Part shown: positions 17,543-58,346 of the stretch, in pieces
Position numbering within the stretch: the first letter of the stretch is position 1
Layout of the letters: each line of letters starts with the position of its first letter
NCBI GenBank assembly: GCA_002840835.1
Contig: PHCQ01000007.1
Span: 62,001 to 126,000, forward strand
Reading direction: 5' to 3'
DNA: 64,000 bases
Origin: Betaproteobacteria bacterium HGW-Betaproteobacteria-16
Lineage (GTDB): Bacteria > Pseudomonadota > Gammaproteobacteria > Burkholderiales > Burkholderiaceae_C
Program-made: the position numbers and the translations under genes
Notes under the pieces: generated by a model
What the model saw: only the letters and a program-made list of their open reading frames with translations
The model's database searches: none
Told to the model about the DNA's origin: nothing

Positions 17543-17603
17543 AGCGGCCTTCTCCCTTCCTTTGCCCACCCTGCCGGATCGCCCGGCAAACAGGACTCAC
17601 GCC

Positions 17604-26600: not shown

Positions 26601-29600
26601 GGTGTCAAGTCGCTGTCGGTGGCGGCGCTTGAAACCATTGACATCAACCATAACGCTGGCGGCATCGGCGTCGGCAGCTCGGTCGGCGCGGGTGTCGGGT
26701 CTGCTGCCAATGTAGTGATCGGGCGCAGCAAGGTGGCAGCCAGCGCGGCAGGTTCGGACATCACCGTGGGTAGCAACCTGGCCGTGACGGCCCTGCGCGA
26801 GGCCGAGGTCGACATGATCACGGCAACGTTGGGCGGCGGCGGCTTGGCCGGCGTCAGCGGGGCGGTCGGTGTGGTGCTGTTTGGCAGCGCTCCTGACAGC
26901 AATGCCACGGCCGAACTGAATGGTGGCAGCGGCAGCAGCATCAGCCGGGTTTCCGCTGGCACCGAGTCAAGCAAGGTGCAGGGCGCCGGGTCGTCGCTGA
27001 CTCAGGCCGAGACAGATTCGCTCAATGCCAGCGCCAGCTACAACACCGCAAGCGCGTTTGGTGGCGCCACCGGTCAGCATTCCACCTCGGCCAGCCTGAG
27101 CGCGGCCAACGTCCAGGCCGGTTCGGTGGCAGTCAGCAGCCTGGACCGTACCTCGGTTGAAAACAACGCTGGCGCCATCGCAGGTGGCGCGTACGTCGGC
27201 GCCAGCGCCGGTGTGGCAGTCACCGTTCTGGGCGGGGCCAACAGTGCCAACGTCAGCGCCAGCCAATTGGCCAGCCAGGGCGGGATCACTGTCGCCTCAG
27301 GCACCCGTACCCCATCACAGGGCGCACCGGCCATCACCAGCCGCGCTATCGCAGGCGCGGGTGGCTTTGTCGGCGTGGGTGCTGCGGTATCGGTCGCTAG
27401 CAATCAGACCGCCAACTCGGCCACCTTGTCGGGTCAGGTGAATGCGGGTGGCGCGGTCAGTGTGACCTCGCTCGACCAGGCCTCTATGCTGAGCGAAGCT
27501 TTCGGTGCCTCGGCAGGTGTCGCCAGTGTGGGCGTCGTTGTCGCCACGGCAGAGCAGACTGGCAGTGTCGCCACGCAGGTGGGTGGCCACGTCGATGGCA
27601 ATGGCGTTGCAATAAACGCGGCCCGTGAAGGCAGCGTGTCAGCGAATGCGATTGGCGGCGTGGCTGGTGTGTTTGCGGGCAGCGGTGCCGGCGCCACGGC
27701 CCGCGACAGTGGCACCGTGAATGTCACGCTCGCCAGTGGTACCGCGTTGGACGCGGGCCAGGGCGCGCTGAGCATCTCGGCGCGTTCCAATCCCAACGCC
27801 GAGGCGGACGCCGTGGGCGTGGCGGTGGCTGGGGGCGCTGCGGTGGGCATCTCGGTCGCCGAGGCGGAAGTCGATTCGGACGTTTCGGTCACCAGCCTGG
27901 GCGGACTGACGCTCAGGGGTGACTCGGTGAACGTCTCTGCCGTGCTGGGATCGGGCGACTCGTCCGTCAGCAGCCAGGCCTCGGCTGGTGCGGGGGCGTT
28001 GCTGCTTGGCGCCACCGGCGCTTCGGCCACTGCGACCAACACAGGCATTTCCAGGGTGAACCTGGCACCCGGTGTGGAACTGGTCACCACGGGCGATGTG
28101 GGCATCACGGCCACCGATGCGATGCGCATCGAATCCAGCGCCGTCGGTATCGGGGCGGGATTTGTGGGACTTGGAATGGCCTTCTCCAGCGCCATCAGCG
28201 ACACCACGGTCGGCGTTGATGCCCAAGGCGTCCGGGGCGTTGTGGGTGGTAGCCTGCAGATCAAGGCCAGCGGAAACGAGTCCATCGACAGCGAGGCCAT
28301 CGCTGGTTCGGGTGGGGTGGTCGCGGGTGCCGGCGCCGAGGCCTCGGTCAATCACGATCAGACCGTGGTGGCCGATCTGGGCATCACCGCAGGCAGCACG
28401 CTGCTGGTCGGTGGCATGACAACGGTCGACGCCAGCCGCCTGGTGCGCTACGACAGCACGACCACTGCCGTGAATGCGGCGGCGGTGGGTGCCTCCGGCG
28501 CTGTCACCCGGGCCACGCTTGATGGCTCTGCGACTGCCCGGTTACTCGACAACTCAACACTGGACAGCGGCAGCCTGCGCATTCTGGCCAGCAACAACCT
28601 CGCCCGCACCAACCTGACAGGCCAGAGCGCTGTGGGGGGTGGTGGGGGCGTGTACAGCGGTGCCGGCGCCGACGTGCACACCGAACTGAACGGCAACGCC
28701 ACGGCCAGTATCGGCAACAACGCCAGCATCCTGCTGGAAGACCTGCTGGAACTGCGCGCTTACAACGAGGTTCGCGGTTCTTCGCGGGCCCAGATGGACG
28801 TTGGCGGCGCGGTACCGATTGCCATGGTCAACACGCGCATTAGCAGCAACGCGAATGCCGATGCCAGCATCGGGCAGAACACCGACATCAATGTGTACGG
28901 CGAAGCGGCGGTCAATGCGCTGTCATACATCGACATCGAAGCCAATTCGGTGTCGAAAACCTACGGCCTGGCGGCTGCAGCCCAGGGCAATGCCTACGCC
29001 ACGGCCAATGTCAACAACCGGGTCACGATGGGCGCTGGTTCTGAACTGCGCAGCACCGAAGACCTGAGCCTGCTGGCCGGACAAGACCGCAACTTCAACC
29101 GCAACAAACATTTCGTGACGGCCCGCGTCGACCTGTTCAACCACTCGGCGATACCGGTGTCCATCAACCCCGATGCGGACGCCACGCTCAACCTGAACAA
29201 CGCGGTGACGGTCAACGCCGACGCAGTCCGCTCCGGCGGCACCATCAAGGTGGGCGGCGTTGAAGGCACCCTGGTGGTTGAAGGCAAGGGCAAGGTCAGC
29301 GACTGGACCCGCGAGCTGGGTGAGCTCATGGGCATCAGCAGCGACTACGGTAGCTCGCGCAAGAACCTGAGCAACACGGCCGTCTTGAACGGCGAGTTCG
29401 AGGCCGGTTTCGGTAACAAGCAGCGGCTGGTGATCGGTATCGATGGGCAGATTCTGGAGAGTGAGGGCGACGTCCGCTACACCATCACCAATGAAGATCT
29501 GTCGGCTTCTGCCGGCGCCTACATCGATAGGCTCTATGCGCAGCTGGCGCGTTACGGTGATGTGCCTGAGGTCAAGGCCTTTGTCGAGGCCGAACTGAGC

Positions 29601-32600
29601 TTCTACTTCGCCACGCTACTCCGGGAAGGACTGGCCGAAGAGATGACGCTGGAAAATGGCAGCAAGGTCATCGTGGCTTCCGAAGGCGTCGCCGCGAACT
29701 TCCTGAACATTCTGGACCTGCGCGCTGGCAGCGGGAACATTGAACTGTTTGGGGACAACGTGACCGGCTCTGCATCGCTCATGGCGCGTGCCGACTCCGA
29801 GATCTACATCGACAACCAGAGCCCTCTGAACCTGCGGGTCTACGACATGGTGGTCGACGCGAATGGCGGCTTTGCCAAGTACAACGGCACCTATCTGATG
29901 AGTGCTGCCGACATCGGCGCGCTCAACACCACCGCGAAGACCACGGGTCTCAGTGTGGACAGCATCGACACACGCGGCGGTGGTGCGTCGCAAGAGTTGC
30001 CCAAGCTGACGGTGAAGAACACCTACATGCCGGGCTCGGTGACCTGGGACCCCAGCATCGCCGTGATCGCCACGGCACCCGATGGGACTTGGGCCGACCT
30101 GCGTGAAGACCAGATGCGCGCGCCCGAGATGCGCGTCAACGGCTGGCTCTACAACAAGCTGGGAACCATCAACCTGATCAACACGGCCGGCAGCATCTCG
30201 GTCTATGCCGAGAACCCGGCGTACACGCCGCGCCTGGATGGCAAGGAGATTCTGGTGTCGGCGGGCAAGAACTTTGTGTTGTCTTCGCCCACCATCAGCC
30301 AGTCGGTCGGTGGCTCGCCCGAATCGCTGTATGCGGTGCATTACAGCGACGACCAGCAAAGGATTCTGGGTAACCTCGGCATTTCGGCCTGCGGCTCGGC
30401 ACGTCCAGGCACCACCACCACCACCTACAACCCCAACTGCGTGGTCAATGGGGCGGGCGGGGTGTATGCGAGCGGTGCGATCTTCATCGGCGCGCGCTAC
30501 CTGAACATCAACGGCACCGTGCAGTCCGGCCAGGCCGATTACAACGTGGTGCTCAATGACAGCACGGTGGGCAGCAAGATCACCAACTGGGCCAACGAAT
30601 GGAAAAACATGGGCGGGCTCTACCTGTCACAAGGTAAATCGTCGCTGGTTCAGCTGACTGGTGCGCTGCCCACCGACAGCGAGGCGGAGGTCAACAAGCG
30701 CTTTGCCAACGGCACCATCACGGCCGGCCAGCGCACCACGATGCTGCAGGCCATGGCCACTCGTCGACTGCAACCCATCGTCTACTTTGATGCCCAGACC
30801 AACCGGCTGAAGGTCGCGCCCACCAACGTTCAGGGCGGACTGGTCGAACTCGTCGGCTCGGTCATCAACACCGGCGGCGGTGTGGTGCGAGCGCTCGATG
30901 GATATGCACGCATCAACATCGACAACCAGACCGGCTACGGCCTGGACCTGATGGGTCTGGACACGGGCGGGGAAGCTGGCGTCATCCGCATCACCGACAT
31001 GAGCAAGCCGGTGGCCAACAGCAACGGCGCCTTTGAGGTCACGACCTACAAGCGCGACGCTGACGGCGTTTTCCGTGCTACCGTGACCGCAGGTCGGGGA
31101 GTGGGCTCCGCAGTTCTCTCGACGACGGCCTCCTCGGCGGCCAACCCGGCCAACGGCGTCAAGGCGCAGTTCACCTACAACCCTGCAGCCAACAGCACCT
31201 ATTCCTGGTCGGCCGGCTACGACTACGCGACGGAAAAGCGCTATTACCTGAAAACCTCGTCGTGGCTGGGCTTCATTCCCGGCGAGACGACGAACTGGAC
31301 CAGTGTGGACACGTACGTCAAGACCGCCAATGCCATGGCCGAAGACGTGTACGTGAGCACCATCAGGCCGGTGGGCGGTGGTTCGTTCTCCATCCAGTCT
31401 GACCGCTTCATCACCGATGCCGAGAAGGAAATCTACTACCGATCCTGGAGAAAGTGCGGCTTCCTGTGCATCAAGAAGACCTACTATGTGGATCGGCGCA
31501 CCGAGGTCGGCATGAAGGACGTCTTCACTCAGCGTGTCAAGGCCGACCACCCGATCAACATCCAGCTGATCGGCTACGACAGCGGCGTGCTCAACGTCAG
31601 CAGCGTGGGCGACATCCGCCTGGGTGGCAACATCACCAACGACAGCGGCACGGTGACACTGACCTCCACCCAAGGGTCCATCAGGCAGCTCAACAACGGT
31701 GCGGTGGTTGAAGGTGTGGATCTGAACTTCCGTGCCAAAACCGGGATCGGGGAAGAGGCCGCGCCCATCAACCTGATCACGGGGGCCGGGTCCTTCACGG
31801 CCATCTCCGACACGGGTCCGATCAGCTTCAAGGGTGTGAGCGGCGCACTGCGCATCAACCAGGTGTCGACCAACGGCGATATCTGGCTCGATGGCGACGG
31901 CAGCATCGTCGGGCTGGACCCCAGCAAGGTTCACGTCATCGGCAACCGCATTTTCATGTCGGCGCCACGCGGCGGGATCGGTGAATTCAACAGCGACGGC
32001 AGCGTCAAGTCCACGCTCAACATCCAGACCCTGGATGCGCCCAACGGCGGCCTGACGGCCCACGCTCGCAACGGCATCGCCATCAAGCAAGACTCAGGCA
32101 ACCTGTGGGTCAACCAGGTCGTGAGTGGCGGCGACGTGTACCTCGAGACGGGCGGCGACCTGATCGACAACAACCGCAACGAATCGCGTGACGAGCGCAC
32201 AGAAGCCCAGTTGCTGGCTTTGTGGGATCAGGCCGCGCTGCAGGGCAGCTCGGCCGAAGCCAGCCGGCAGTTGACGCTGACCACCACCCGTGCACAGTTC
32301 CGCCGCTACTGGAGCCTGCGCGACGTGCGCAACGTGGTGACGGACAGCAACGGCAACGTCACCAGCTATGAAGCAGATGTCATCGATCCGGCGACCTATG
32401 TCTTCCGCTTCGGGACAGAGGAGCGGGAGCAATACCTCCTTGGCGGCATCACCGAACCCCAGATCGAGGCCATCGAGGCGGCGCGCACCACGGAGATGAA
32501 GGCGCTGCACGCCCAATTCGGCGGCACCGGCTACCAGACCGACAACGACCGCATCATCACGGCCATCAATGTCGCCAATGCGGCCAACGGCAAATCAGAG

Positions 32601-35600
32601 GTGGGAGCGCTGGCAGAGTGGTCGGATGCAGAGCTGTACAGTCCCTTGCCCGCCGCGGTGTTCACCAAGAGCAGCACCGACACACAGACCCGCATCGAAG
32701 AGCCCAATGTGGTGGGCAACCGGGTGGTGTTGCGCGCGCACGGTCAGATCGGCAACGACGACGGGCAGGTGGTGATACCGCTCAAACGCCAGGATCGCAT
32801 CAATCAGGGCCTGGCGCCCGATCTGACGGACGACGAGCGCCTGGCCATCATGTCGGCGGAGAGCGACGACATGATCCTCAACCGCGACAACTGGACCCTG
32901 ACGGTGGTCAAGAAGGACACCTTCAACGTGCTGTCGAACCGTCTGAATGTGGAGTCCGACGGCTTTGTCTACCTGGGTGCCGACACCACCGACACCTATA
33001 CCAACGGCGGTACGGCCAATCTGGAACTGATCAGGGCACCCGGTGAAGTTCGCATCAAGGTGACGGACTCCATCCTGAGCGTCGCCAACCCGGGCGTTTC
33101 GGTCATCCAGGGCCAGAAGGCGGTGCTGGAAGCCGCCCAGGGCAGCATTGGCTCTGCCGCCAACCCGCTTCAGATCACCCTTGCCAACAACGCCACGGGC
33201 ACGCTCGTGGCTCGTGCGAACGACGGCATCTGGATCCATGAAATCGGCGACATGCGGGTCGCAGATATCTACACCCCGGGCAGCGCGAACCTGTCGGCTA
33301 CGGGCTCCATCTTTGACGCTCGTGCAGTGACCAACTTCCCTACCGCCGGCGACCGCGCCGTTCGTTCGATCGAGGCTCACGAACTCACACTGACCGCGCT
33401 GGGGGGTTCTGTCGGTGAACTTGCCAACCCGTTGGTGGTCAAGGTCGGTGCCGGTGGCGTCAATGCCACTTCGGCACTCGGCTATTCGGTCTACCTGCAG
33501 GGCGCAGCCGGTTCCGGCCTGAACCTGAACGCGGTCAACTCCGGATTCGATTTCACAGCCGTTGCAACAGGCGACATGCACCACACCGGGTCGGTGAGAG
33601 TACGCGGCAGCATCTTTGCCGAGGCCGGTGGTGACATCACCGGGGTGATGTACAACGCGGGCGGTCAGATCGTGATCGGCGCCGGCGGTGACATCACCGG
33701 CAGCAATGTGACGGCCAGCACAGGCGGCATCAGCTTGAACGCCGGTGGCGACATCGCCTTGGGCAGCGTGCTGTCCAACCGGGACGTGGCGGCCACTGCA
33801 GATGGCTCGATCGAGCTGACATCGGCGTCAGCGGGACGTGACCTGAATCTGACCGCACTGGGAGGCGGCGTGCAGGGCGTGTCCTGGAGGGCTGCCAACA
33901 ACATCAGCATCTGGGGCTTGGGCGATATCAGGGCAACCAGCGTTCTGGCGTCGGCTGGAGAAATCACGATGAACGGCGGGGCCGACCTGTTTGTGGACTT
34001 CGCCAGCGCAAGGGGTGACGTGGAACTGAGTGCCGCGCGCAACATCGCTCTGACCAATGCCAGCAGCAGCACCGGACTGCTTTCGGTCGACGCAGGCGAA
34101 GCGGTCTCCATGCTCTCAGGATCGGCCAGGGGATCGGTGACGGTCACAGCCGGTACCGGCCTGCAAGCGTCGATGCTGGCCAGCGCCACGTCCTCGGTGC
34201 AAGCCGTCACCGACGAGGGTGATCTGGAAGTCCAAAGGGTTTCCGCCGTCGAGGACGTCAACCTGACTGCGGCCACCGGCGATCTGAACGCGGGCGTTGT
34301 GAGTACCACACGTGGCAACCTGTGGCTGATGTCGGGCGGCGCCATGAGTGTCTCTTCCGTAACCTTGCCTGGCAACCTGTCTGCGCAGGCGGGCGGGAAT
34401 GCCGATTTCGGCAAGCTGACCTCCACTGCTGGGCGGATCGACCTGGCATCCACCAACGAGTCTCTCAGCGCCGGTGCGGTCATCGCCAAGACCGTGTTTG
34501 ACGCGCAAGCACTGAACGGCGCAATGACTGTGGGCGCCTTCAATGCCGCCACGGCGAGCTTGCTGGCGGGTACCGATCTGATCATTGCGGGCACGGCCAC
34601 GACCTTCGGCGCGATGGACCTGCGCAGCGGCGGTGATGCGCTCTTTGGCAATCTGACCTCGACGGGTGGCAGCATCACAGCGGATGCCGGAGGCAAGGTG
34701 ACGGCCAACAGCCTCAGGGCACAAACGGGTCTGGACCTGTCGGCAGGCACAGGCTTGACCGCCAATGCGCTGACCAGCGTCACATCGAGCGTGGACGTGT
34801 CCACAGACAGCGGCCCTCTGCTGATGAACAGCGTCATCGCCAAGACGGCGTTCAACGCCATCAGCGGCGATGCGCTGACCATCAAGGCGTTCAACGCGGC
34901 CACGGCCAACCTGGCCGCGGGCACCGACCTGATCGTGGCCGGCACGGGTGCGACCAGCGGCGCCATGGACTTGCGCAGCGGTGGCGACGCGCTCTTTGGC
35001 AACCTGACTTCGACGACTGGCAGCATCACTGCGGACGCCGGGGGCAAGATGACGGCCAATACCCTCAGGGCACAAACGGGTTTGGATCTGTCGGCAGGCA
35101 CCGGGCTGACCGCCAGTGCGCTGACCAGCGTCACATCACGCGTCGATGTGTCCACCGACAGCGGCCCTCTGCTGATGAACAGCGCCATCGCCAAGACGGC
35201 GTTCAACGCCACCAGCGGCGACGCGCTGACCATTCGAAGCTTCAACGCGGCCACGGCGACCCTGCTGGCGGGCACCGACCTGATCGTTGCCGGTACCGGC
35301 ACGACCAGCGGCTCGATGGACCTGCGCAGCGGTGGCGACGCGCTCTTTGCCACCCTGACTTCGACGGGCAGCAGCATCACGGCGGAAGCCGGGGGCAAGT
35401 TGACAGCCAACAGCCTCAGGGCACAAACGGAGCTGGACCTGTCGGCAGGCACAGGCTTGACCGCCGGTGCACTGACCAGCGTCACATCAAGCATTGATGT
35501 GGAGTCGTTGGCCGGTGCCGTGACCATCAATGGCGCCACCGCCAGGACCTCGTTCAGTGCCCGCAGCGGCGACGCGCTGACCATTCGAAGCTTCAACGTG

Positions 35601-36059
35601 ACGATGGGCCACGCTTTGCTGCAGTCGGGCGGTTCCACGCTGTTGAGTGCCGGGCAGGCCAGCGGTGACATCACCATCACCAGCGGCAGCCATGCCTCGC
35701 TGGGCAACCTGACAAGCTCGGGCGGCAAGATCAGCGCGACCTCCCAGGGGGGAGGGCTGGCCTTCGGAACCCTCAGGGCAAACACCGGCATCACGCTCGA
35801 TGCCGCCACGGCCTGGTCGGGTGGCAATGCCATTTCCGGCAGTGGTTTGTACGTGAGCAGTGGCCTCGTCGATGTGATGGCGAGATTCGGCAACATCAAT
35901 ATCGGCACCCTGTCGGTTGCGAGTCCTCTGGGAATCAGCACCTTGACAACCCAGGCCGGTTCGCTTCGATTGGGTCAGATCGCCGGGTTTGCCTCACACC
36001 AGAATAAGCTGGTGATCGAGGTGGCAGGCGGCACCCGGATCGTGCCGGCCGGCTACTGA
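17604..36059 (+). CDS. Giant two-partner-secreted filamentous adhesin (about 6151 aa), LktA/FHA-like
   Basis: An uninterrupted frame of about 18.5 kb, from ATG 17604 with AGGA 8 bases upstream. N-terminus: Arg-rich extended signal ending VVHAQ (about 50), then a TPS secretion domain (about 60-270) with NWWVNIVRDSQVRVDGLLES, GNIGGNIMFIDSHGFAVGPS and FVDGLLDGGGVL, of the type in leukotoxin LktA-family filamentous adhesins. At 385-444 there are three 20-residue Thr/Glu-rich units. From about 600 to 4000 runs a long beta-helical repeat region with many GGGxxAVGAAxAxN and AGSGAGTxAVNG blocks. An Ig-like insert lies at about 2873-2998 (VKVFDGTREVTATLNADGSYS). Residues 5627-5978 hold three nearly identical 117-aa repeats. 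Cysteines are rare but paired (near 4262 and 4617). No C-terminal anchor is evident. Partners are the TpsB transporter and SapC upstream and the isomerase downstream. Exported substrate role: attachment or aggregation (inference). Confidence 0.92.
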   Translation: MKFAAFPTRTPAQLARIARRRLLVRVRPLALAAAAALGATGPVVHAQTVITPITGPGQTDTVVSTQGSQTVISTQSLRDGNAFSTYSAFKVGGGDTAQMAVPQGANWWVNIVRDSQVRVDGLLESRLTNGNIGGNIMFIDSHGFAVGPSGRVNVGRLSFAAPSTAFVDGLLDGGGVLSGAAVKGLLAGDFKRSATGAVDIRGRITAQDGVSLMAGAGAGASRAVSISGQVTVQGRSAGSAVNLGNLKSLAPLQDLDGVIDITTPGSIKLDGVLISDSSRWGRVGAVRVVAGTDIEVGANTRVSASGAAGSGDAGGQVALYAQRDIANAPGAELRARGDGSGAGGTIEYSGGRQLSLNSMKFDAGSDSGTAGRVLVDLSRAVIEGETSTEDANSEAAVDETVSGGETPTKPADAEVAIDTTESGGETSTNQPDSEPAGDETLTSETATFSTMAADDGAMGASVASSGNSTHAVFEGEILTGGASLELAGDETLTVRAGALINTRNVYDDAKDATAASVGRSGDILLTARHITLEGNSFLDASVVNQGGTTYQAGDIRLYASNSSSGQTLVSLADADASIDVAGTLKGRDISFEASIESSAEFGGAAAGIQEKALELVLKGMDAPLGLSLAYVEAKGNATVTVRDTAVMDASRDISIAAKADRTASAEVATEGSSMANLSAGFAHVAGETRVDIQSGATLDAGRDIDVVAASKTSVAMAGAAIGKPDQGTGEQNVASVVFSGSLSDITTSIHVGAAAVLTSGANTDLQAFHSGNYETTADVTVYGGGTAGVVGALSLQKSTTSTSVDGTINAGGDARVMAMNASAKNIISATAVTTSDPYTIGLPETLELSNSEAKDQLALGYLDMVDKLGSMSESASSSDGSSGSAPALRLAGTMTWSESEHITHARVGAGASITAGGDAVVDAQTLVGQLQSVGLSEATSETKGKDASPVALSVAFNYSDHAFNTRADVGANAVVQGGHVAVHAATDIPQFYTAGLPTQWDNFFSVYENLMGGTDPLYAGFNTRVGAASAGGNLALAGAVNLSYIKNDTRSWIGTGASITTTVADGASWSYGVKEVAFDSDVEAMFIGSAPYRLDKDLGVLGSFVSETRAAPSGPDLEEINFTRSFIDAAVVKAETNVQTLHLAGGSGPEAGATGGAVGGTLSLVDRDNTTIAGIADGAVIETQSLAVDASTHDWLLTISPTSGSGEGMAANGMVSSNNLKETTLASISREAFVTAPTVKVNADLELWVLAVTGAVTQSENSGVGIAVSLNQLAGDTRAYIGDNDADGGGSDTAEGAVGAIATGALQVQARSEGMIAAVGVAGAAAGDGTKPPGSGLAEKADAMKAEMDAATTTVLSLGTESGKNEGAGGEESGDEGAGTPPPFSIAGAGAVVSNFSNIDTLALVENALVTGIDTGTSRLNVQALSDLTQISVAGGGALAMANNASTTFSSAIAGAAAIQYSDDDTTARVVGSTVRDLADEAGSLSVTALKSGERTAVATGISVNLSKGSTSDLSIVGSVSQTHLSDKTTASIEGSTISGDAANPSAAGASVVAYDRSRIGAGGGALSFSKGKGSAGIGATISMVDLQGSTSAFVDAGSISQMHDLTVAALSSQKVVSAGMVAGVQTGSDSKGQLMGAFVYNEINNTVSAGIKGGAAVNLSGDLFLQAGGAPVDGALDALIGTQRTSAVTDYEMSSSSNGYSDELKSATGGDSIIGVAGAMSVSLGNSATSVGLSYVQNSIQSTYNAELSGDVVAAGDVTVNALSRANIVGVSAGLGATKGKFSGMGSASTNLIGQRTQARVTGGSITASSLTLDSGTSGDIFALAGNVSIAVGNGSGNAAGGAVAYTQTGTRTYTVAPTTYVVDGETYTDAGGSTSTRAAGNEATVSGATINLGSGDIRVQAHNTSDTLSVAASGAASDGNVAFAGTLTWNEIGDVTDARISGSAVTAGDVLVQAGQSSGGTSSNISSLAGGVSASNGYSGALAFGFNTIESTRSAQILSSTITASDSVSVLADAQGSIETVAATLAASGTNYAMAGSSSVNWLNGSTAALVDDVTLQGTATSLTVHAAHSGNIDSLAGAISGSAAGVVGGAVAVNLMGDGSDHFEVRSGLSNSTLAAPVSVKVDAALSGDIDSIAVAGSGAGTNAVNGSVTRNVIAGDVTAEVTNVTQTATGGTLQVLADQTSSISSLAGVINGAGTNAVGGAVAVNDIASTVTARLASSELRASGAVTVKAGMDGNIDSIAAAGSGAGTTAVNGSNTTNSLTSTVRASATDLTQALASTSFDVLARDESTIRSLAGTVSGGGTAAVGAAIALNFLGRTAADEAAQKLVLAEVNNSTLKVTGAVNVLARSDSTIQSMGVAAGGGGTFAVTGSNTTNILEDTISASWTGSTLVGSNTGSLKIQAKDDADIESLAGNFAGGGTAAVGAASAVNRIATEVQAKLSGTGAGYVRTGDVEVRALNDGEIDTIAVGMSASGTVGVQGSVAVSMISADTAALIDGGARVEAWDSVAVTADSQARIKALAGAGALGAGGVGAAGGVLVNMITSQTTAGISGATTAVSGLANADGVLTNTSWLASAPNLMNITEVTDAALSRPVLATYMRRGVSVQATSIEQIAALTTVAGGGSVGVGAAVNVDSIAGSTRAYVDGASINALAGGASGQDVTVLAADHVLIASNVATVAGGAATGVAGAVGTETVKRSSHAEVLGGATVQAIGGVIVKAVSTASVAQISAGAGVGGSTGVAGSGNVVLLAGDTRARVDGSTVAAKDVSVLAEGANRTNLIAGSVGGGGVAGVGLSFTVNVSGANVRALVSDSLLQADGDVKIHANNVTQELAVAATAGGGGLAGVAIGAAVTVLEGNTEAGLGGSSTVERRTRATGTVASANNAGVTVQLDSSDGVITANEQGAARFVLTRAISTQLADGSFEVVHEPASLGAGAVVKVFDGTREVTATLNADGSYSADISALGDGQLTAIVYTSVSGGAPVSGSPSSSVLFTKAAGVKSLSVAALETIDINHNAGGIGVGSSVGAGVGSAANVVIGRSKVAASAAGSDITVGSNLAVTALREAEVDMITATLGGGGLAGVSGAVGVVLFGSAPDSNATAELNGGSGSSISRVSAGTESSKVQGAGSSLTQAETDSLNASASYNTASAFGGATGQHSTSASLSAANVQAGSVAVSSLDRTSVENNAGAIAGGAYVGASAGVAVTVLGGANSANVSASQLASQGGITVASGTRTPSQGAPAITSRAIAGAGGFVGVGAAVSVASNQTANSATLSGQVNAGGAVSVTSLDQASMLSEAFGASAGVASVGVVVATAEQTGSVATQVGGHVDGNGVAINAAREGSVSANAIGGVAGVFAGSGAGATARDSGTVNVTLASGTALDAGQGALSISARSNPNAEADAVGVAVAGGAAVGISVAEAEVDSDVSVTSLGGLTLRGDSVNVSAVLGSGDSSVSSQASAGAGALLLGATGASATATNTGISRVNLAPGVELVTTGDVGITATDAMRIESSAVGIGAGFVGLGMAFSSAISDTTVGVDAQGVRGVVGGSLQIKASGNESIDSEAIAGSGGVVAGAGAEASVNHDQTVVADLGITAGSTLLVGGMTTVDASRLVRYDSTTTAVNAAAVGASGAVTRATLDGSATARLLDNSTLDSGSLRILASNNLARTNLTGQSAVGGGGGVYSGAGADVHTELNGNATASIGNNASILLEDLLELRAYNEVRGSSRAQMDVGGAVPIAMVNTRISSNANADASIGQNTDINVYGEAAVNALSYIDIEANSVSKTYGLAAAAQGNAYATANVNNRVTMGAGSELRSTEDLSLLAGQDRNFNRNKHFVTARVDLFNHSAIPVSINPDADATLNLNNAVTVNADAVRSGGTIKVGGVEGTLVVEGKGKVSDWTRELGELMGISSDYGSSRKNLSNTAVLNGEFEAGFGNKQRLVIGIDGQILESEGDVRYTITNEDLSASAGAYIDRLYAQLARYGDVPEVKAFVEAELSFYFATLLREGLAEEMTLENGSKVIVASEGVAANFLNILDLRAGSGNIELFGDNVTGSASLMARADSEIYIDNQSPLNLRVYDMVVDANGGFAKYNGTYLMSAADIGALNTTAKTTGLSVDSIDTRGGGASQELPKLTVKNTYMPGSVTWDPSIAVIATAPDGTWADLREDQMRAPEMRVNGWLYNKLGTINLINTAGSISVYAENPAYTPRLDGKEILVSAGKNFVLSSPTISQSVGGSPESLYAVHYSDDQQRILGNLGISACGSARPGTTTTTYNPNCVVNGAGGVYASGAIFIGARYLNINGTVQSGQADYNVVLNDSTVGSKITNWANEWKNMGGLYLSQGKSSLVQLTGALPTDSEAEVNKRFANGTITAGQRTTMLQAMATRRLQPIVYFDAQTNRLKVAPTNVQGGLVELVGSVINTGGGVVRALDGYARINIDNQTGYGLDLMGLDTGGEAGVIRITDMSKPVANSNGAFEVTTYKRDADGVFRATVTAGRGVGSAVLSTTASSAANPANGVKAQFTYNPAANSTYSWSAGYDYATEKRYYLKTSSWLGFIPGETTNWTSVDTYVKTANAMAEDVYVSTIRPVGGGSFSIQSDRFITDAEKEIYYRSWRKCGFLCIKKTYYVDRRTEVGMKDVFTQRVKADHPINIQLIGYDSGVLNVSSVGDIRLGGNITNDSGTVTLTSTQGSIRQLNNGAVVEGVDLNFRAKTGIGEEAAPINLITGAGSFTAISDTGPISFKGVSGALRINQVSTNGDIWLDGDGSIVGLDPSKVHVIGNRIFMSAPRGGIGEFNSDGSVKSTLNIQTLDAPNGGLTAHARNGIAIKQDSGNLWVNQVVSGGDVYLETGGDLIDNNRNESRDERTEAQLLALWDQAALQGSSAEASRQLTLTTTRAQFRRYWSLRDVRNVVTDSNGNVTSYEADVIDPATYVFRFGTEEREQYLLGGITEPQIEAIEAARTTEMKALHAQFGGTGYQTDNDRIITAINVANAANGKSEVGALAEWSDAELYSPLPAAVFTKSSTDTQTRIEEPNVVGNRVVLRAHGQIGNDDGQVVIPLKRQDRINQGLAPDLTDDERLAIMSAESDDMILNRDNWTLTVVKKDTFNVLSNRLNVESDGFVYLGADTTDTYTNGGTANLELIRAPGEVRIKVTDSILSVANPGVSVIQGQKAVLEAAQGSIGSAANPLQITLANNATGTLVARANDGIWIHEIGDMRVADIYTPGSANLSATGSIFDARAVTNFPTAGDRAVRSIEAHELTLTALGGSVGELANPLVVKVGAGGVNATSALGYSVYLQGAAGSGLNLNAVNSGFDFTAVATGDMHHTGSVRVRGSIFAEAGGDITGVMYNAGGQIVIGAGGDITGSNVTASTGGISLNAGGDIALGSVLSNRDVAATADGSIELTSASAGRDLNLTALGGGVQGVSWRAANNISIWGLGDIRATSVLASAGEITMNGGADLFVDFASARGDVELSAARNIALTNASSSTGLLSVDAGEAVSMLSGSARGSVTVTAGTGLQASMLASATSSVQAVTDEGDLEVQRVSAVEDVNLTAATGDLNAGVVSTTRGNLWLMSGGAMSVSSVTLPGNLSAQAGGNADFGKLTSTAGRIDLASTNESLSAGAVIAKTVFDAQALNGAMTVGAFNAATASLLAGTDLIIAGTATTFGAMDLRSGGDALFGNLTSTGGSITADAGGKVTANSLRAQTGLDLSAGTGLTANALTSVTSSVDVSTDSGPLLMNSVIAKTAFNAISGDALTIKAFNAATANLAAGTDLIVAGTGATSGAMDLRSGGDALFGNLTSTTGSITADAGGKMTANTLRAQTGLDLSAGTGLTASALTSVTSRVDVSTDSGPLLMNSAIAKTAFNATSGDALTIRSFNAATATLLAGTDLIVAGTGTTSGSMDLRSGGDALFATLTSTGSSITAEAGGKLTANSLRAQTELDLSAGTGLTAGALTSVTSSIDVESLAGAVTINGATARTSFSARSGDALTIRSFNVTMGHALLQSGGSTLLSAGQASGDITITSGSHASLGNLTSSGGKISATSQGGGLAFGTLRANTGITLDAATAWSGGNAISGSGLYVSSGLVDVMARFGNINIGTLSVASPLGISTLTTQAGSLRLGQIAGFASHQNKLVIEVAGGTRIVPAGY
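18756..18935 (+). repeat. Three 60-bp tandem repeats inside the giant adhesin gene
   Basis: In-frame units start at 18756, 18816 and 18876, each beginning with GAAACT and encoding ETSTEDANSEAAVDETVSGG-like sequence (20 residues, rich in E, T, S). They form an acidic linker just after the TPS domain. Copies are imperfect. Confidence 0.75.
34482..35537 (+). repeat. Three near-identical 351-354-bp tandem repeats near the 3' end of the giant adhesin gene
   Basis: Units start at 34482, 34836 and 35187 (spacing 354 and 351). Each encodes about 117 residues beginning AKTAFNA-SGDALTI-FNAAT and containing DLRSGGDALF, LRAQTGLDLSAGTGLTA and VDVSTDSGPLLMNS. A fourth, diverged unit starts near 35538. Long stretches are identical between units at DNA level, so the array can expand or contract by recombination while keeping the frame. 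Confidence 0.85.
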
Positions 36060-37266: not shown

Positions 37267-38307
37267 CTACGCAGCCTTGTTTCGAAGGCAGTTCGAGGAA
37301 CCCGGTTCTGCCAGCTGCCACAGCTTGTGGGCCATGGCCGTGAGCTCAAGTCCTGTGGTGAGTTCGACAAGTGGCCTCCAGCCGAACTCACGGAGGCGCC
37401 GGTTGTCCAGCTTGCAACCTTCTCGGGAGAAACCAACCGGAGACAGTTCCACCGCGCCGTGAAATCCAATCGCTATGGCAATGGCCTGTACCAGATCGCC
37501 CGCACCCACGTCGACATCACTGGCCGTATTGATGTGGCTGCAGGAAGGCGGCAGGATGCCGTCGTACTCGCACTGCGGAAGTTCCATCAGGAATACGGCT
37601 GCATCAGCCACATCATCCACGTAGAGCAGGTCAAAACGCTCTGAAGGGTCGATTTCAAGCATCACTGAGCTGCCAGGCGAGGCCATGGCAGACGAAAAGC
37701 TGTGAAACATGTTTCGGATGAATCTGTCGGCGGCGCCAGCGCAGTTGGTGAGCCTGCCTTTGGTCATCGACCAGCTGGGTCCGTAGGGTTGGCTCGTCAG
37801 AATGCATCGGTAGTCAAGCCCATGGCTCTGGCCTAACTCTTTCATTATCTGGCGGCTGAGAGAGACGCTCTGATAATCCGGTGCACAGGTGCCATCAACG
37901 CCCGCTTTAAAAGAAAACGCGGACAACCACCGTGCCTCGTCAATGGGCCCGTGGTCCGGGATGGGCCTGGAAACCGCCGTGGTGACTTGCATCAGGCGAC
38001 GCACGCCCGACTTGAGTGCCGCCTGAACTATGTGTGCCGACCCCGCGTGCTTGCGAGAGCCATTCAATCTTGCGTAGCCGTCTGGAGCCTGAAAGGCATC
38101 CATGTCTTCACTCCCGACATATACCTGAGCAGGCTTCACCTTTTCAAAAAATGATCGTATGGACCTGGTGTCGGTCCAGTCGACATCGTCCGATGGAGTC
38201 GGATAAATCAGATTTCTCGGATGCCCCAGGCGGATCAGCTGGCGGTAGATGGCCGCTCCAACCGCCGTGTGGTTGGCGACGGCAATGCGTTCGGTGCAAA
38301 AGCCCAT
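37267..38307 (-). CDS. GDP-fucose-synthase-like SDR protein with altered cofactor and catalytic motifs, copy 1
   Basis: 346 aa from ATG 38307; an upstream in-frame extension to 38496 has no homology. The framework is that of GDP-L-fucose synthase/NAD-dependent epimerases: IAVANHTAVGAAIYRQL at the N-terminus, VDWTDTRSIRSFFEKVKPAQVYVGS, YRCILTSQPYGPSW, FDLLYVDDVADAAVFLME, LREFGWRPLVELTTGLE. In active enzymes the first motif is V-A-G-H-R-G-x-V-G and the catalytic motif is Y-x-x-x-K. Here the Rossmann glycines are largely lost (VANHTAVG) and Y145-Q-S-V-S149 has Ser instead of Lys. It is therefore unlikely to be a normal epimerase/reductase and may bind a nucleotide sugar or act as a regulator (inference). 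It follows the UppS-like gene by 192 bases on the same strand. A related altered protein is at 56572-57564. Confidence 0.75.
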   Translation of the reverse strand: MGFCTERIAVANHTAVGAAIYRQLIRLGHPRNLIYPTPSDDVDWTDTRSIRSFFEKVKPAQVYVGSEDMDAFQAPDGYARLNGSRKHAGSAHIVQAALKSGVRRLMQVTTAVSRPIPDHGPIDEARWLSAFSFKAGVDGTCAPDYQSVSLSRQIMKELGQSHGLDYRCILTSQPYGPSWSMTKGRLTNCAGAADRFIRNMFHSFSSAMASPGSSVMLEIDPSERFDLLYVDDVADAAVFLMELPQCEYDGILPPSCSHINTASDVDVGAGDLVQAIAIAIGFHGAVELSPVGFSREGCKLDNRRLREFGWRPLVELTTGLELTAMAHKLWQLAEPGSSNCLRNKAA

Positions 38308-38499
38308 CGGGTATTCTTCAGCCTGCAGCCGGGCGTACCCAGCAGATTTTGAAAGGTTTGCATGATGCAGGCAATGGCGCCTCTGAGACTGCCGGGCTGC
38401 AGCGCAAGGTGAACTCCGCGCACTGAAGCATGCTCTTGCTGAGTCGCTCGCCGTGATGTGTGAGGTGACTGCCCCGAGGCGTAGCGATGCTGGCATTGC

Positions 38500-39297
38500 T
38501 CACCACTCGCTACCCTGGGCAGTTGCGCAAGGGATTGGAGGGACCTGGTCTTGCGCTGGAGAGAGTTCACAACCTTTTTGTCGCGCTTCCAGGCCATACC
38601 AGTCCAGCGCGTCCTTCAGTGCAGGGGCATCGAAATCAGGCCAGAGCGCGTCGGTGAAGTACAGCGCGGTGCGCCCAGTCGTCCACAGCATGGCGTTCTG
38701 GACCGACATCGGTCCACCGGTGCGAATGACAAAATCCGGCTCGCAATATGCGTCGTAGGGCACAGCCTTGGTCACTCTGTCCAGTTCGGACTCTGGTCGG
38801 CCGTGGGTTTGCCGAGGACCGTTCCAGCAACCAAGCTTCGGGTTGTCAACCAGCAGGTTGAGCAACATGCCTTTGTTGAATCGCGTCTGAAAAGACAGAT
38901 TGACCAGATTCCTTCCAATGAAGGCGTCTTCCAGCGGGAGGCGCACCTCGGAGCAAAGACGTACTCGGTGACGGTGCAGGTTCTGCTCGCCCACCGCGAT
39001 GTAGCGGACCAGCGAACGCAGGAGTGCAAGGTGCTGACCTTGTGTCGTCGACTGCAAGTCGGCAGAGAATGCACAGAAGGTGACCCGCTTGAGTTCACTG
39101 GTCATGCAGAGGTCGATCAACTCGAGAAAGCGCCGAAACCCGGCGGCGGCCGCTTCGGTGGGAGAGAGACTGTGTTTCTGTGCCCAGGCGCGGTGGCCCT
39201 GGAGAATGATGGCCAAGTGCTGGGGCTTCTTTTCACTGAACTCGTCAGGAGCCTGCTTGTGGAGCCCCATGGGTGCTGTTACTTGCTGTTCTCGCAT
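38500..39297 (-). CDS. Undecaprenyl-diphosphate-synthase-like protein lacking the catalytic Asp
   Basis: 265 aa from ATG 39297, with AGGGA 8 bases upstream. Collinear with cis-isoprenyl transferases (UppS): HLAIILQGHRAWAQKHSLSP, VTFCAFSADLQ, VGEQNLHRHRVRLC, PDFVIRTGGPMSVQNAMLW, ALYFTDALWPDFDAPALKDA. In active enzymes the first motif is M-D-G-N-G-R-W-A, where the Asp is essential for pyrophosphate/Mg2+ handling; here it is L-Q33-G-H-R-A-W-A, so Asp, Asn and Arg positions are changed. The distal R-T-G-G and Y-F-T-D-x-L-W-P motifs remain. The length is normal for the family and the frame is intact, so this is a diverged paralogue and not an obvious broken gene. The likely partner is the fucose-synthase-like gene directly downstream. 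Function unknown; possibly binds prenyl phosphates without catalysis. Confidence 0.78.
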   Translation of the reverse strand: MREQQVTAPMGLHKQAPDEFSEKKPQHLAIILQGHRAWAQKHSLSPTEAAAAGFRRFLELIDLCMTSELKRVTFCAFSADLQSTTQGQHLALLRSLVRYIAVGEQNLHRHRVRLCSEVRLPLEDAFIGRNLVNLSFQTRFNKGMLLNLLVDNPKLGCWNGPRQTHGRPESELDRVTKAVPYDAYCEPDFVIRTGGPMSVQNAMLWTTGRTALYFTDALWPDFDAPALKDALDWYGLEARQKGCELSPAQDQVPPIPCATAQGSEW

Positions 39298-39817
39298 AGC
39301 TGTATCCCTGTGACTGTCTTCACCTGAACAGATGGATGCCGGGCGGTTGAGTTGAGAGGGTCAAGTCGGCGCGAATTGAAGATGGGTGTGAGGCTGACAA
39401 CGAACGCGTTACAGGATGATAAATGTCATAAATACTATTAAAATGGCAACTTTATCATAAATATATCAGTTTGTGACTTTTGTCGCAGAATAGTTCAGTG
39501 GTCACCCACAGCCTTCACTGGAACTTGCGCGCCTGAGTCGGTGCCGTGCACGAAGCGCGGTTCTGCCGGCCGCGGTACCTGGTGTGTTCGACCCGAGAGC
39601 GTGTTGCAGGCGTCTTTGTCACCAGTGACCGATGCTCAGGTCGAGGTGAAGGAAACGGAAGGCAAGCGATGCTCACGACCTGCTGGCCAGTGAACGCATG
39701 CATGGCTGCTTAGCCTGGTCAAACCATCAGCGGGACTCCGCTCGCCAGGCAAGAGGCGCTCTGACGGCGGGGTAACGGTCGAGGCACTGATGAGCTGTGC
39801 TGAGGAACAGGTAACAG
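39298..39817. promoter_or_regulatory. Intergenic region with an AT-rich promoter block ahead of the UppS-like gene
   Basis: 520 bases between the IHF-like stop and the UppS-like start. 39415-39490 is strongly AT-rich with TGATAAATGTCATAAAT (39417-39433) and TCATAAATATATCAGTTT (39455-39472); a related TCATATTTATCAGTT occurs at 56460-56474 ahead of the second fucose-synthase-like gene. The rest (39500-39817) is GC-rich with nothing recognised. Promoter function is inferred. Confidence 0.4.
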
Positions 39818-40276
39818 TCAGCCGCTGTGGGTGTTGCGGGCGATGCCGCCGCGACAGGCTGAACTCGACGCCTCCGCCTGTTCCTGGGGCAGGAGCGCGT
39901 AGGCAATGGGGTGAAACACGAATTGCTTCAGTTCGCGGCCTTCGCCTTCCGACTCGTCCCCCCGCTTGGTCATCATCCGCTCCCTCAGCGTGGGGCCTGT
40001 AGAGAACTTCACCACTTGGCGGGGTGAAATGGGAGCGCTCAACCCGGTACGCGGGTTGCGGCCCATGCGAGCACTTTTTTTCTGCACTACAAAGCTGCCG
40101 AAACCCGTCAGCTTCACCTTTTCTCCTTGGGCGAGTTGCTCCAGGATCAACTCGAAGAATGCGTTGACCATTTCATCGGACTCTCGTCCGCTGACGCCCA
40201 TTTTTTCGCCCAGCAGGTCCGCAAGGTCTGCCTTGGTCAGCGAGGAAAGCGCCAGGTTGTCTGTCAAGTGGTTCAT
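39818..40276 (-). CDS. IHF-alpha-like DNA-bending protein with a C-terminal extension
   Basis: 152 aa, GGAG just upstream of ATG 40276. Residues about 12-100 are an IHF/HU fold closest in style to IHF-alpha: LTKADLADLLGEKMGVSGRE, VNAFFELILEQLAQGEKVKL, TGFGSFVVQKKSARMGRNPR, ISPRQVVKFSTG, LRERM. The GRNPRTG arm tip, with the intercalating proline, is present. Family members stop near residue 100; here about 50 further residues follow (RGDESEGEGRELKQFVFHPI...SACRGGIARNTHSG) with no known motif. The chromosomal ihfA normally lies after pheT, so this is probably a second, accessory copy. Such proteins bend promoter DNA; the AT-rich regions on both sides are possible targets. Confidence 0.88.
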   Translation of the reverse strand: MNHLTDNLALSSLTKADLADLLGEKMGVSGRESDEMVNAFFELILEQLAQGEKVKLTGFGSFVVQKKSARMGRNPRTGLSAPISPRQVVKFSTGPTLRERMMTKRGDESEGEGRELKQFVFHPIAYALLPQEQAEASSSACRGGIARNTHSG

Positions 40277-48785: not shown

Positions 48786-50813
48786 ATGACGAAAATAGAA
48801 TCATCGAAAAAGCGTCTTTTGGTAGGTAATGCCTCAAATGGAAAGGAGGTGCAACTTCAATTTTTGCTGAAGGCCTCCAAACTGGGGTGGTGGAAAGCCC
48901 GAATGCCATTCACAGAAATTTATTTGTATGGGTATTCGAAGAAGCTGCTTGGTGACCTCCCCGCGGACGGCAAATATTGCACCAAAGCATTGATTGAGAG
49001 TGTTCATCCTGACGAAAGGAAGCGACTCACGGCCGAGTTGAATCTTCTATTTACATCCGCTGTTGAACACATCTCAAGTGAATATCGCTTCCAGACGCCT
49101 GACGGGTGGGTTTGGCTGGAGTCCCACGCTGTCGCCGCGGAGGTCGATGAGGGAGGAACAGTCACCTGCCTCATGGGTACGCTTGCGGATATCACTCAGC
49201 GCAAGAAAATTGACGAGTCTTCATTGCAAGAAGGCAGGGCGGCCAGACAGAAGATTCATGAGCAGACTGCGTTCCTGGCCACGATCAGTCATGAGATACG
49301 TACCCCGCTCAACTCCGTCATGGGGCTCGCCCAGGTCCTGGAATCAAGCCCGTTGAATGAGGTTCAGCAACACTGGGTGAGGTTGATGCAAGAATCGTCG
49401 AACGTGCTGTTGAATGTGTTGAATGATGTTGTGGATTTTGCTCGTCTTGGATCGGACAAACTGAAAATCGAGCGAATTGAATTTGCACTGCGCCCCCTTA
49501 CAGTCGGAGTGGTTGATTTGTACCGTGAACAGGCCAGGTTGAAGCCTGTTCGGCTGGAGTTGTCAATTTCCCCACTGTTGCCCAGCAACATGGTGGGGGA
49601 CCCCCTGCGCATCCGTCAAGTATTGAACAATTTGTTGTCAAATGCCATCAAGTTCACACCCCCGGGCGGGCAAGTGAAGCTTGCCGTGGACCCACTGCAT
49701 GGAGCCAATCGTGACACTGAAATTTCCTTCCGGATTGAAGACACGGGAATCGGTATTCATCAGGAACAACAGCAAGCCGTGTTCGAACCCTTTGCCCAGG
49801 CAGACGCCAGTACAACACGACGCTATGGGGGCAGCGGCCTGGGGCTAGCCATTTGCTCCAGGCTGGTAGAAATGATGGATGGCAAGATCTTCCTGAGCAG
49901 TACTCCAGGGGTGGGCAGCATATTTGAAATGCGTCTTCCATTGATGAGCGCTGATTGTCTCGAGCTTGATATTTTGCCAAATATGACTGTACCCCATGAT
50001 GAATTGATGTCGGCCAGCCGCAGCTTCGCGAAGTTGAAAGTCATCATTGCGCTGGACCAATCTTGCGGCACTCAACTCATAAGCAATACGCTGACGAAGG
50101 TGGGGTGCGAAGTACACATAGTCACTAGCGGGGCGATGGCAATTGAAATGTGGGAGGAGGGTGGCGTGGATCTGATTCTAATGGATGTTGAATGCCGCAG
50201 TTTCAATGGATCCGGGGCTATTCTTGAGATTCGCTCCAGGGAGCAGCGACTGAATCTGCCACCGGTCCCCATTTTGTCATCAACTGATTTTATTGCATCC
50301 AACCATAGCCCAACCTCCAAGTCCTCCGGAAGAGGGGAGAACAGGTTGAGGGCCACTGATCTCAGACACCTCCTGCAGTGCATGGCGAAAGCAGTGCATG
50401 GCGCAAAGGCAGATTTCGCGTCGGGAACAAGTACCATTCCCAACCCACGAAGAATTGCCTCTGATCCAAATGTTCAACGGAATGCGCACACGCGTGCAGC
50501 GTCGGAATTGGAAAGCACTGCGATCATTCAGGATGAAATAGCAGAAGGCCTGGTGAAACTTCGTAGGCTGCTTGACGTTCAGGATTCATTGCATGCTGAA
50601 GGCGCGCTTGCGGAGTTGAAGAAGCAGCTTTCACGCTTTGCAGCCGAGCGCGCGATCAGAATTTGCAATGGGCTCGACATGGCGAGACACGCGGGTGAGT
50701 GGGGGCTCGCAGCTCACGCGCTGTCCTTGCTTGAGGCAGAGATCCAGGAAGCGCTGAGTCGGTTGCCATTCGATGGATTCAGGGCTTCATCAGAAGATGC
50801 GGGAGCCGCATGA
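48786..50813 (+). CDS. PAS hybrid sensor kinase with degenerate receiver and HPt-like tail
   Basis: 675 aa, cytoplasmic. A PAS_3 domain (about 24-138, LLKASKLGWWKARMP, VHPDERKRL, MGTLADITQRK) is followed by HisKA with FLATISHEIRTPLNSVMG (His 169) and a HATPase (about 275-390; EDTGIGI, YGGSGLGLAI). Residues 418-510 are receiver-like, but the acidic pair is reduced to IIALDQ, Asp is kept in LILMDVE, and the conserved K-P segment is missing. The last 90 residues resemble an HPt helical bundle (LKKQLSRFAAERAIRICNGL) without the phospho-accepting His. So the kinase core looks active, but the internal relay probably is not. Base composition is lower in GC than the flanking pilus and adhesin genes, which hints at transfer. 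Confidence 0.82.
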   Translation: MTKIESSKKRLLVGNASNGKEVQLQFLLKASKLGWWKARMPFTEIYLYGYSKKLLGDLPADGKYCTKALIESVHPDERKRLTAELNLLFTSAVEHISSEYRFQTPDGWVWLESHAVAAEVDEGGTVTCLMGTLADITQRKKIDESSLQEGRAARQKIHEQTAFLATISHEIRTPLNSVMGLAQVLESSPLNEVQQHWVRLMQESSNVLLNVLNDVVDFARLGSDKLKIERIEFALRPLTVGVVDLYREQARLKPVRLELSISPLLPSNMVGDPLRIRQVLNNLLSNAIKFTPPGGQVKLAVDPLHGANRDTEISFRIEDTGIGIHQEQQQAVFEPFAQADASTTRRYGGSGLGLAICSRLVEMMDGKIFLSSTPGVGSIFEMRLPLMSADCLELDILPNMTVPHDELMSASRSFAKLKVIIALDQSCGTQLISNTLTKVGCEVHIVTSGAMAIEMWEEGGVDLILMDVECRSFNGSGAILEIRSREQRLNLPPVPILSSTDFIASNHSPTSKSSGRGENRLRATDLRHLLQCMAKAVHGAKADFASGTSTIPNPRRIASDPNVQRNAHTRAASELESTAIIQDEIAEGLVKLRRLLDVQDSLHAEGALAELKKQLSRFAAERAIRICNGLDMARHAGEWGLAAHALSLLEAEIQEALSRLPFDGFRASSEDAGAA

Positions 50814-56405: not shown

Positions 56406-56571
56406 CTTACATGTCCGCTTGCTATTTCAGAGAGTAAATGGCATTAAAACCATTCTATGTCATATTTATCAGTTACTATGACGAAAATTCAGCGCGGCTG
56501 GGATCTGATCCTGAAACAAGCCGGGCCCTCGCCATCCCCTGCATTCGATCAGAACCAACCCACTTTGTCAG
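56406..56571 (+). promoter_or_regulatory. AT-rich promoter region of the second fucose-synthase-like gene
   Basis: 56425-56480 is AT-rich and contains TCATATTTATCAGTT (56460-56474), related to TCATAAATATATCAGTTT ahead of the UppS-like gene. ATG 56572 has no strong ribosome binding site. Promoter assignment is inferred from composition and position. Confidence 0.4.
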
Positions 56572-57564: not shown

Positions 57565-58346
57565 GTCAGGCCCTCCGTGCCCCTTCGTCGAAAGCTGAGA
57601 CTCTTACCCTCGCAGAGGGTTGCCCTGGGACGCGCTGACGTCAGGTGACCTCGGCAACATCATCGAGCGCTTCTGTTCTGTCCACTCGGGACTTTGAGGT
57701 GATTTGGCTCACTCGACTCAGATGGTGTTTTTCCTTCCGCTTCGTGACTGAGATTGACATTCCACAAGGCCAACCTTGGGACAGAGGCGTCACCTAGAAG
57801 CGGGAAGTCCCTTCGCATTCGCATCAGGTGGAGAGACTGAAAGCCTGTTCGTCCCTGTAATAGGCATTCATGAGCAAGAGCCGGCGTAGCTACCCAAACC
57901 CTGATGACACATTGCCTGGAGTTCCAGGATGGCCAGCGAGTTTTTGCGTCGTTCTCATTTCTAGAAGTCGCACGGAGGAAGTGGAAAATGGCTTGCTCCT
58001 GGCAGATTTGCCAGTCCGTGCCAGGCCGGAGAGGGCAGTTTCTCTCGCGAGAGCGACATCCTGCCTCTTCGGGAAGCACCCTTGCGGGTGTAGCGTGCGC
58101 GGATCTAACACTGCTTGTGGAAAGGCCCCATCGGTTGACCAGGAGTGGCATCTGTCGGTATCGACACGCTGGCATTGGGATTGCCTTGTCTCAAATCAAG
58201 GTGTAGGTCTGTTGGTCTTGGGACAGGCGTTTTGTTAGCCGCCAATTTTGACGGGGTGCAAAAATGTGAATAATGCGAATGTTCGGCCAAACCTCGCCCA
58301 AACAAGCTGCACTCATTTTTTTCAATATTGTTTTCGAAGCAAATTC
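57565..58346. other. Long intergenic region before the second HTH-receiver gene
   Basis: About 780 bases without a recognisable gene. A small hairpin ACCCT-cgcag-AGGGT (57606-57620) follows the upstream gene without a T-tract. The last 100 bases (58240-58346) are AT-richer and should hold the promoter of the HTH-receiver gene. The rest shows nothing identifiable. Confidence 0.4.

Follow-up and report, generated by a model that had tools for sequence, protein, structure and literature searches.

Homologs of polysaccharide-precursor enzymes with replaced active sites in a putative adhesion regulon of Hydrogenophaga

Two neighboring genes in the genome of Betaproteobacteria bacterium HGW-Betaproteobacteria-16 (GCA_002840835.1, contig PHCQ01000007.1) resemble UppS and GDP-L-fucose synthase (Fcl/WcaG) and have altered active sites, which raises the question of whether they encode dead enzymes that are maintained and, if so, what they are maintained for. 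We analyzed a stretch of 64,000 nucleotides (positions 62,001 to 126,000 of the forward strand), referred to here as the window, together with a survey of 67 Hydrogenophaga genomes in which the present genome is labeled G000. The genes in question are as follows.

38500 to 39297, minus strand: UppS-like pseudo-enzyme P0001, 265 aa, PF01255 match with active-site residues replaced; relatives P0003 and P0005
37267 to 38307, minus strand: GDP-fucose-synthase-like pseudo-enzyme type A, P0002, 346 aa from the likely start, PF01370; relative P0007 in G072
56572 to 57564, plus strand: GDP-fucose-synthase-like pseudo-enzyme type B, P0013, 330 aa, PF01370 at 90 bits, catalytic residues lost

Replaced residues in the UppS-like and fucose-synthase-like proteins

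Both family assignments held in profile searches, where P0001 matched PF01255 along its whole length (E 1.2e-21, 77.7 bits, cut-off 27) and P0002 matched PF01370 (43 bits, cut-off 20.9). P0001 resembles UppS in this full-domain match, in its RTGG and WPxF motifs (the latter within YFTDALWPDFD), and in structural Gly and Trp residues, but it falls below all NCBIfam UppS cut-offs listed, and the catalytic Asp and most diphosphate-binding residues are replaced. Where active enzymes have the loop MDGN[GR]RWA, it has LQGHRAWA. The initial annotation had described this as loss of the essential Asp from a protein that keeps its fold motifs, which proved correct, and the real loss is far larger than one Asp. 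In an alignment of 73 active proteins, drawn from the genus, its family and order, and more distant groups, with three altered ones, numbered by the active UppS of this genome, the catalytic Asp was present in 73/73 active proteins and absent from P0001 (LQGH). Fifty positions were invariant in the active proteins, and 23 of these were changed in all three altered proteins (two of them as a gap in one altered protein), while 15, including RTGG and Trp, Gly, and Pro residues, were retained by all three. Among the residues lost are the catalytic Asp, the loop Asn, His41, Glu71, Asn72, Trp73, Arg75, and Glu79, as well as Glu189, Arg191, Ser193, Glu204, and Arg233; for most of these we presume a catalytic or binding role such as contact with the diphosphate. 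The arginine of the C-terminal RxG motif (R233) is replaced by Gln, Ser, and Pro in the three altered proteins. Four substitutions are common to all three and occur in none of the 73 active proteins (Asn to His, Gly to Ala, Glu to Asp, and Glu to Ala). In human DHDDS, according to an excerpt of PMC7573591, changing the matching Asp lowers activity about 5-20 fold. Since residual activity is kept there, the single Asp change is no proof of a dead enzyme; it is the sum of the changes that makes one likely.

The altered motif recurs in a second species as LQGHRQWA (G072), in a protein with approximately 50% amino acid identity to P0001, and in a third genome as VSGHRRWA (G080). Identity between altered and active UppS is 25-34%. 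All three altered proteins fall on one side of a 100/99 tree branch, but the branches are very long, so the grouping may be due in part to long-branch attraction and the exact sister group is unsure.

The open frame of P0002 spans 37267-38496 on the minus strand (409 aa). Residue 64 aligns with a Met in relatives P0006 and P0007, and the start of P0004 lies close by. The likely start is therefore 38307, and the first 63 residues of the frame were set aside as probably untranslated, non-coding sequence. From the UppS-like stop to this likely start there are 192 bases. Neither frame contains an internal stop, as the initial annotation had observed. P0002 aligns nearly full length with E. coli GDP-fucose synthase structures (best E 6.6e-19, residues 69-386), but scores only 77.7 bits against the GDP-fucose synthase model NF047922, far under the NCBIfam equivalog cut-off of 500. 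It differs from GDP-L-fucose synthase in lacking the equivalents of Cys109, Tyr136, Lys140, and His179, and all four catalytic residues are likewise missing from P0013. Roles for these Cys, His, Tyr, and Lys residues in the enzyme are described in excerpts of PMC12362431 and PMC2279256. In the multiple alignment the canonical Tyr is replaced by Thr and the Lys by Asp, whereas the pairwise alignment shifts the Tyr by about one position. Of the earlier reading of YQSVS in place of YxxxK, the loss of Lys therefore stands in both alignments, but the assignment of the Tyr depends on register. The broken glycine motif noted earlier is real (VANHTA-VG versus VAGHRGMVG); GxxGxxG is broken in both P0002 and P0013 and intact in P0006 of G080.

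Across the genus, five altered Fcl proteins lack Cys, Tyr, Lys, and His, all of which are kept in 19 canonical proteins and six paralogs, and a sixth, from G079, has lost Cys, Tyr, and Lys and kept His. Among eleven further Fcl matches, nine have SSC and YxxxK, one at a contig end has SSC and the His motif, and one is a fragment unreadable for motifs. The six altered proteins lie on one side of a 77/92 tree branch, again with long branches. P0013 is 63% identical to P0004, and P0006 retains 122 of 154 canonical-invariant positions, with the catalytic ones and a few others changed. NmrA-type regulators are a known case of an SDR-like fold that lacks the catalytic pair and is regulatory; they keep the dinucleotide-binding motif, however, which is broken in the SDR proteins of the window. 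This genome also carries an active-looking UppS (G000:C154, MDGNGRWA) and a canonical GDP-fucose synthase (G000:C132), and P0001 and P0002 are therefore extra copies.

Distribution, gene sets, and retention

P0001 matched UppS sequences in 64 of the 67 Hydrogenophaga genomes. In these 64, 72 UppS places were read, of which 69 keep the Asp and three do not. Altered Fcl occurs in four genomes, namely G000 (two), G072 (two), G080 (one), and G079 (one; this genome is 79% complete), so that the three genomes with altered UppS all carry altered Fcl as well. The altered proteins are thus not isolated to one genome (altered UppS in 3/67, altered Fcl in 4/67). Co-occurrence probabilities, which ignore kinship and are given no weight here, were 8e-5 for altered UppS with altered Fcl and 1.6e-4 for altered Fcl with proteins combining HTH_17 and receiver domains. 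In one genome assembled as a single contig (G025:C1:2051000-2052100, L302), the only UppS matches are two pieces in overlapping frames, resembling a frame shift, which may reflect a sequencing error or have another cause.

Outside the genus, the altered UppS motif was not seen in viral contigs, plasmids, GTDB r220, or genomes of the family, within the scope of each search. Viral contigs yielded no relatives. Plasmid matches were all below 60% identity (P0001, 49 records; P0002, 116), and among the matches listed the named genes were UppS/ispU or GDP-fucose synthase, the others having no named gene. No close relative of P0001 was found in GTDB r220, where 79 of the best 80 loci read keep the Asp and the remaining one is G080 itself. 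In the family search (399 genomes), P-loops were read in the 29 best-match loci other than our own, so a weak relative there could be missed.

The initial annotation had suggested that the adjacent pair might form a small unit, which did not hold up, since the UppS-like and type A genes are neighbors in the window only. In G072 the UppS-like gene adjoins the type B gene (P0004) and a family-2 glycosyltransferase gene, and the type A gene (P0007) is about 79 kb away. In G080 UppS and Fcl are separated by four ORFs, namely a WecA-like gene, a family-2 glycosyltransferase gene, a dehydrogenase-like gene, and an additional one. The genomes differ in gene order; the conserved unit is a set of altered enzymes, not the adjacent pair. 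A GalE-like protein in G080 has Leu at the Tyr and Lys places and keeps 92 of the 147 positions invariant in 11 canonical GalE proteins. A short UDP-sugar-dehydrogenase-like protein in G080 scores 65.7 bits, and a weaker, also short one in G072 scores 26.2 bits, below the Pfam cut-off of 27. The family-2 glycosyltransferases of G072 and G080 are 49% identical, and no counterpart was found in G000 or G079; UDP-sugar-dehydrogenase-like and GalE-like genes were likewise not found in G000.

A second active UppS (MDGNRRWA) is present in G016, G008, G073, and G085. It lies beside GalU in G008, G073, and G085 (GalU and export genes were named by eye) and occurs with a WecA-like gene in G016, G008, and G085. 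The altered UppS of G080 is located directly 5′ of a WecA-like gene 44-47% identical to those of G016, G008, and G085, which suggests that altered UppS is most likely derived from a UppS dedicated to polysaccharide synthesis. In G011, a second UppS-like frame (L041:8765-9520) has MDGNGRWA, and the RTGG motif is unmatched.

When the genes of the window were compared with those of G072, pN/pS was 0.36/0.78 (UppS-like), 0.23/0.72 (type B Fcl), and 0.43/0.71 (type A); an active UppS pair gave 0.19/0.71. In all three altered genes pN is well below pS, although synonymous sites are saturated, so that dN/dS has no precise value and constraint is shown but not its exact strength. Altered-UppS pairs involving G080 gave dN/dS of 0.4-0.5, which is compatible with relaxed constraint. 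The frames are open in the window and in relatives from other species. Neutral drift simulated at 0.7 changes per site produced about 7-9 stops per gene, and 0/1000 runs were stop-free for the three genes.

Ordinary decay would make these genes remnants of a duplicated polysaccharide locus, kept temporarily under relaxed selection. The rarity of altered UppS in the genus, the fast evolution, the partial sets in different genomes, the short weak dehydrogenase-like gene of G072, and the insertion-sequence-like ORFs in the islands are all consistent with it. However, open frames in all species, the excess of pS over pN, and the number of stops expected under drift argue against decay, as do the four substitutions shared by three species at or near former active-site positions and the retention of the promoter boxes described below, and we consider it unlikely. 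The view of these proteins as maintained pseudo-enzymes is borne out by altered relatives in other genomes, open frames, and synonymous differences exceeding non-synonymous ones, and we conclude with high confidence that the enzymes are dead and maintained.

Promoter box and adhesion island

The UppS-like and type B genes share a candidate promoter box with other genes of the window, at the following places.

39410 to 39471, strand not assigned: promoter boxes 5′ of the UppS-like gene, with TTTATCA at 39417 (minus) and 39451 (plus) and AATATATCAGTT at 39460 (plus)
56456 to 56478, plus strand: promoter box 5′ of type B Fcl, the sole TTTATCA[GT]TT site in the whole genome
6403 to 6425, minus strand: box-like site 5′ of an HTH_17-receiver gene, 16.9 bits
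7795 to 7857, plus strand: box-like sites 5′ of the gene at 8022-8606, the best 23.1 bits at 7835

In the window, TTTATCA is present three times, always in intergenic DNA; two copies precede the UppS-like gene and one precedes type B Fcl. The longer TTTATCA[GT]TT is almost restricted to the islands; it is found once in G000, within the island. In G072 five of six genome-wide sites fall within the 84 kb holding the altered genes, and in G080 all five are on one contig within 46 kb. G079 has three, one beside altered Fcl, and G010 has one; seven genomes in which no HTH_17-receiver gene was found have 0-3 each. When 15 sites of G072, G080, and G079 were combined into a 23-base matrix, it gave nine window matches of at least 16 bits, against an average of 0.5 in Markov copies that kept local composition. 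The matches fall in four promoter regions, those of the HTH_17-receiver gene, the gene at 8022, the UppS-like gene, and type B Fcl. Shuffled versions of two promoters peaked at 15.6 bits, compared with 21.4 and 24.7 for the real ones. Because the box was first noticed by comparing promoters of the window and G072, this matrix test is partly circular and partly independent. Two matches of at least 19 bits turned up in 355 kb of other loci; one belongs to G006, a genome that carries an HTH_17-receiver gene. A Polaromonas locus (L131:9964) has a box-like match of 22.6 bits. A 1913-aa protein of G080 with an animal-haem-peroxidase domain and RTX repeats (L209:5200-10941) has a TTTATCATTT box in front of its gene.

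Promoter and terminator scans near the UppS-like and type A pair gave nothing clear. A CRP-like site (TGTGA-N6-TCACA, one mismatch) at 39472-39487, 5′ of the UppS-like gene, was discounted because the excess of such sites over chance is weak (six in the window versus 2.3 expected, with 3/100 shuffles as high).

The surrounding island encodes regulators and surface-associated proteins.

58248 to 58958, plus strand: HTH_17 and response-regulator receiver protein (Pfam), candidate regulator, 79% identical to one in G072
6572 to 7159, plus strand: second HTH_17-receiver protein (Pfam)
8022 to 8606, plus strand: secreted-looking protein without a Pfam match, 5′ of the CsgG gene, 74% identical in G072
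8623 to 9990, plus strand: CsgG-family outer-membrane assembly protein, PF03783 at 61.2 bits, 87% identical in G072
10082 to 14782, plus strand: large, repetitive putative adhesin without a Pfam match, 75% identical in G072
48786 to 50813, plus strand: PAS_3-HisKA-HATPase-receiver hybrid kinase (Pfam), with relatives in G072 and G080

The CsgG region may be holdfast-like. Relatives of the hybrid kinase adjoin the UppS-like gene in G072 and lie approximately 2.5 kb from it in G080. The window also contains a two-partner-secretion gene, PilY1, and hybrid kinases, and an M23 peptidase gene is present in the islands of G072 and G080, along with bactofilin (by Pfam in G072 and by eye in G080). Insertion-sequence-like ORFs were seen in the islands by eye. 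HTH_17-receiver proteins occur in nine of the 67 genomes, including all four with altered Fcl and five in which no altered enzymes were detected. Following ShlB-type secretion and SapC-family genes, a 6165-aa frame with repeated segments occupies 17562-36059 on the plus strand (approximately 6020 aa in G072). Upstream of the UppS-like gene, at 39818-40276 on the minus strand, is an IHF/HU-family gene (PF00216, 92.1 bits) whose product has about 50 extra C-terminal residues.

A shared promoter box, the mark by which membership in an adhesion regulon was judged, was found, and the altered enzymes probably belong to such a regulon. The evidence points to a larger set within an adhesion regulon, rather than a two-gene ligand-binding unit.

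Proposed origin and role of the altered set

The reading that we favor, with a probability of roughly 0.58, is that the enzymes of a duplicated polysaccharide pathway lost catalysis without losing their folds and became part of the adhesion regulon. The ancestral duplicated locus would have comprised a second UppS, a WecA-like sugar-phosphate transferase, a family-2 glycosyltransferase, a UDP-sugar dehydrogenase, GDP-fucose synthase, and GalE. In one branch of Hydrogenophaga several of these enzymes would have lost catalysis with their folds kept, and their genes would then have come under the promoter box common to adhesin, fimbrial, and regulator genes, which may be read by the HTH_17-receiver regulators and their kinases. 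In the mechanism that we consider most likely, the dead copies would pair with active paralogs (UppS, GDP-fucose synthase) or with glycosyltransferase machinery, and such pairing might tune or scaffold production of a surface polymer while the adhesion program is on.

UppS, Fcl, GalE, and UDP-sugar dehydrogenases form dimers or higher oligomers, so dead copies could pair with live ones, although for UppS this is uncertain because of the low identity between altered and active proteins. A role as partners or scaffolds is accordingly a tentative suggestion, which we reach by inference. More doubtful still is a narrower version, in which the regulon would encode deliberately dead paralogs of enzymes from a single biosynthetic route (a lipid-carrier synthase, a UDP-sugar dehydrogenase, and epimerases), made together with adhesins as decoy or tuning subunits and possibly pairing with active enzymes so that polymer synthesis is redirected or held back while cells attach. 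The binding of lipid-phosphate and nucleotide-sugar ligands proposed initially has lost ground, as the diphosphate-contacting residues are gone along with the Asp, and the glycine motif is broken in both SDR proteins.

The proteins might alternatively be neofunctionalized enzymes, with new active sites on old folds for another reaction or ligand. The new residues H35, A49, D80, and A211 are conserved in the UppS-like group, and in P0006 of G080 it is mainly the catalytic positions that are changed, as might be expected of such enzymes. However, several kinds of residues needed for diphosphate, Mg, or NADP chemistry have gone together, and beyond H35, E59, D62, and D80 the UppS-like group showed no new charged residues that could take their place, which makes this improbable.

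Like NgBR/Nus1, P0001 has an inactive cis-prenyltransferase fold in a cell that also contains an active one, but it is bacterial, lacks the RxG arginine, and is linked to adhesion genes, and any partnership is putative. That it is an NgBR-type subunit stimulating the active UppS of the same cell is the least probable reading, for although UppS is a dimer, an inactive subunit is known in eukaryotes (excerpt of PMC7573591), and an active UppS exists in the same genome, none of the three altered proteins has the RxG arginine that NgBR supplies (yeast Nus1 also lacks a canonical RxG, according to the same excerpt) and most Hydrogenophaga have no altered UppS-like gene.

Inactive enzyme copies as such are already known. 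In the open-licence PMC literature, we found no account of several enzymes from a single polysaccharide-precursor route that have lost catalysis and are kept together in an adhesion island. Homology-based annotation would label these genes UppS and fucose synthase, which calls for caution. If true, the conversion of a duplicated pathway proposed here would be a bacterial parallel to the inactive subunits of prenyltransferases, and it would offer a case in which the change of enzymes into regulators across a whole pathway can be tested.
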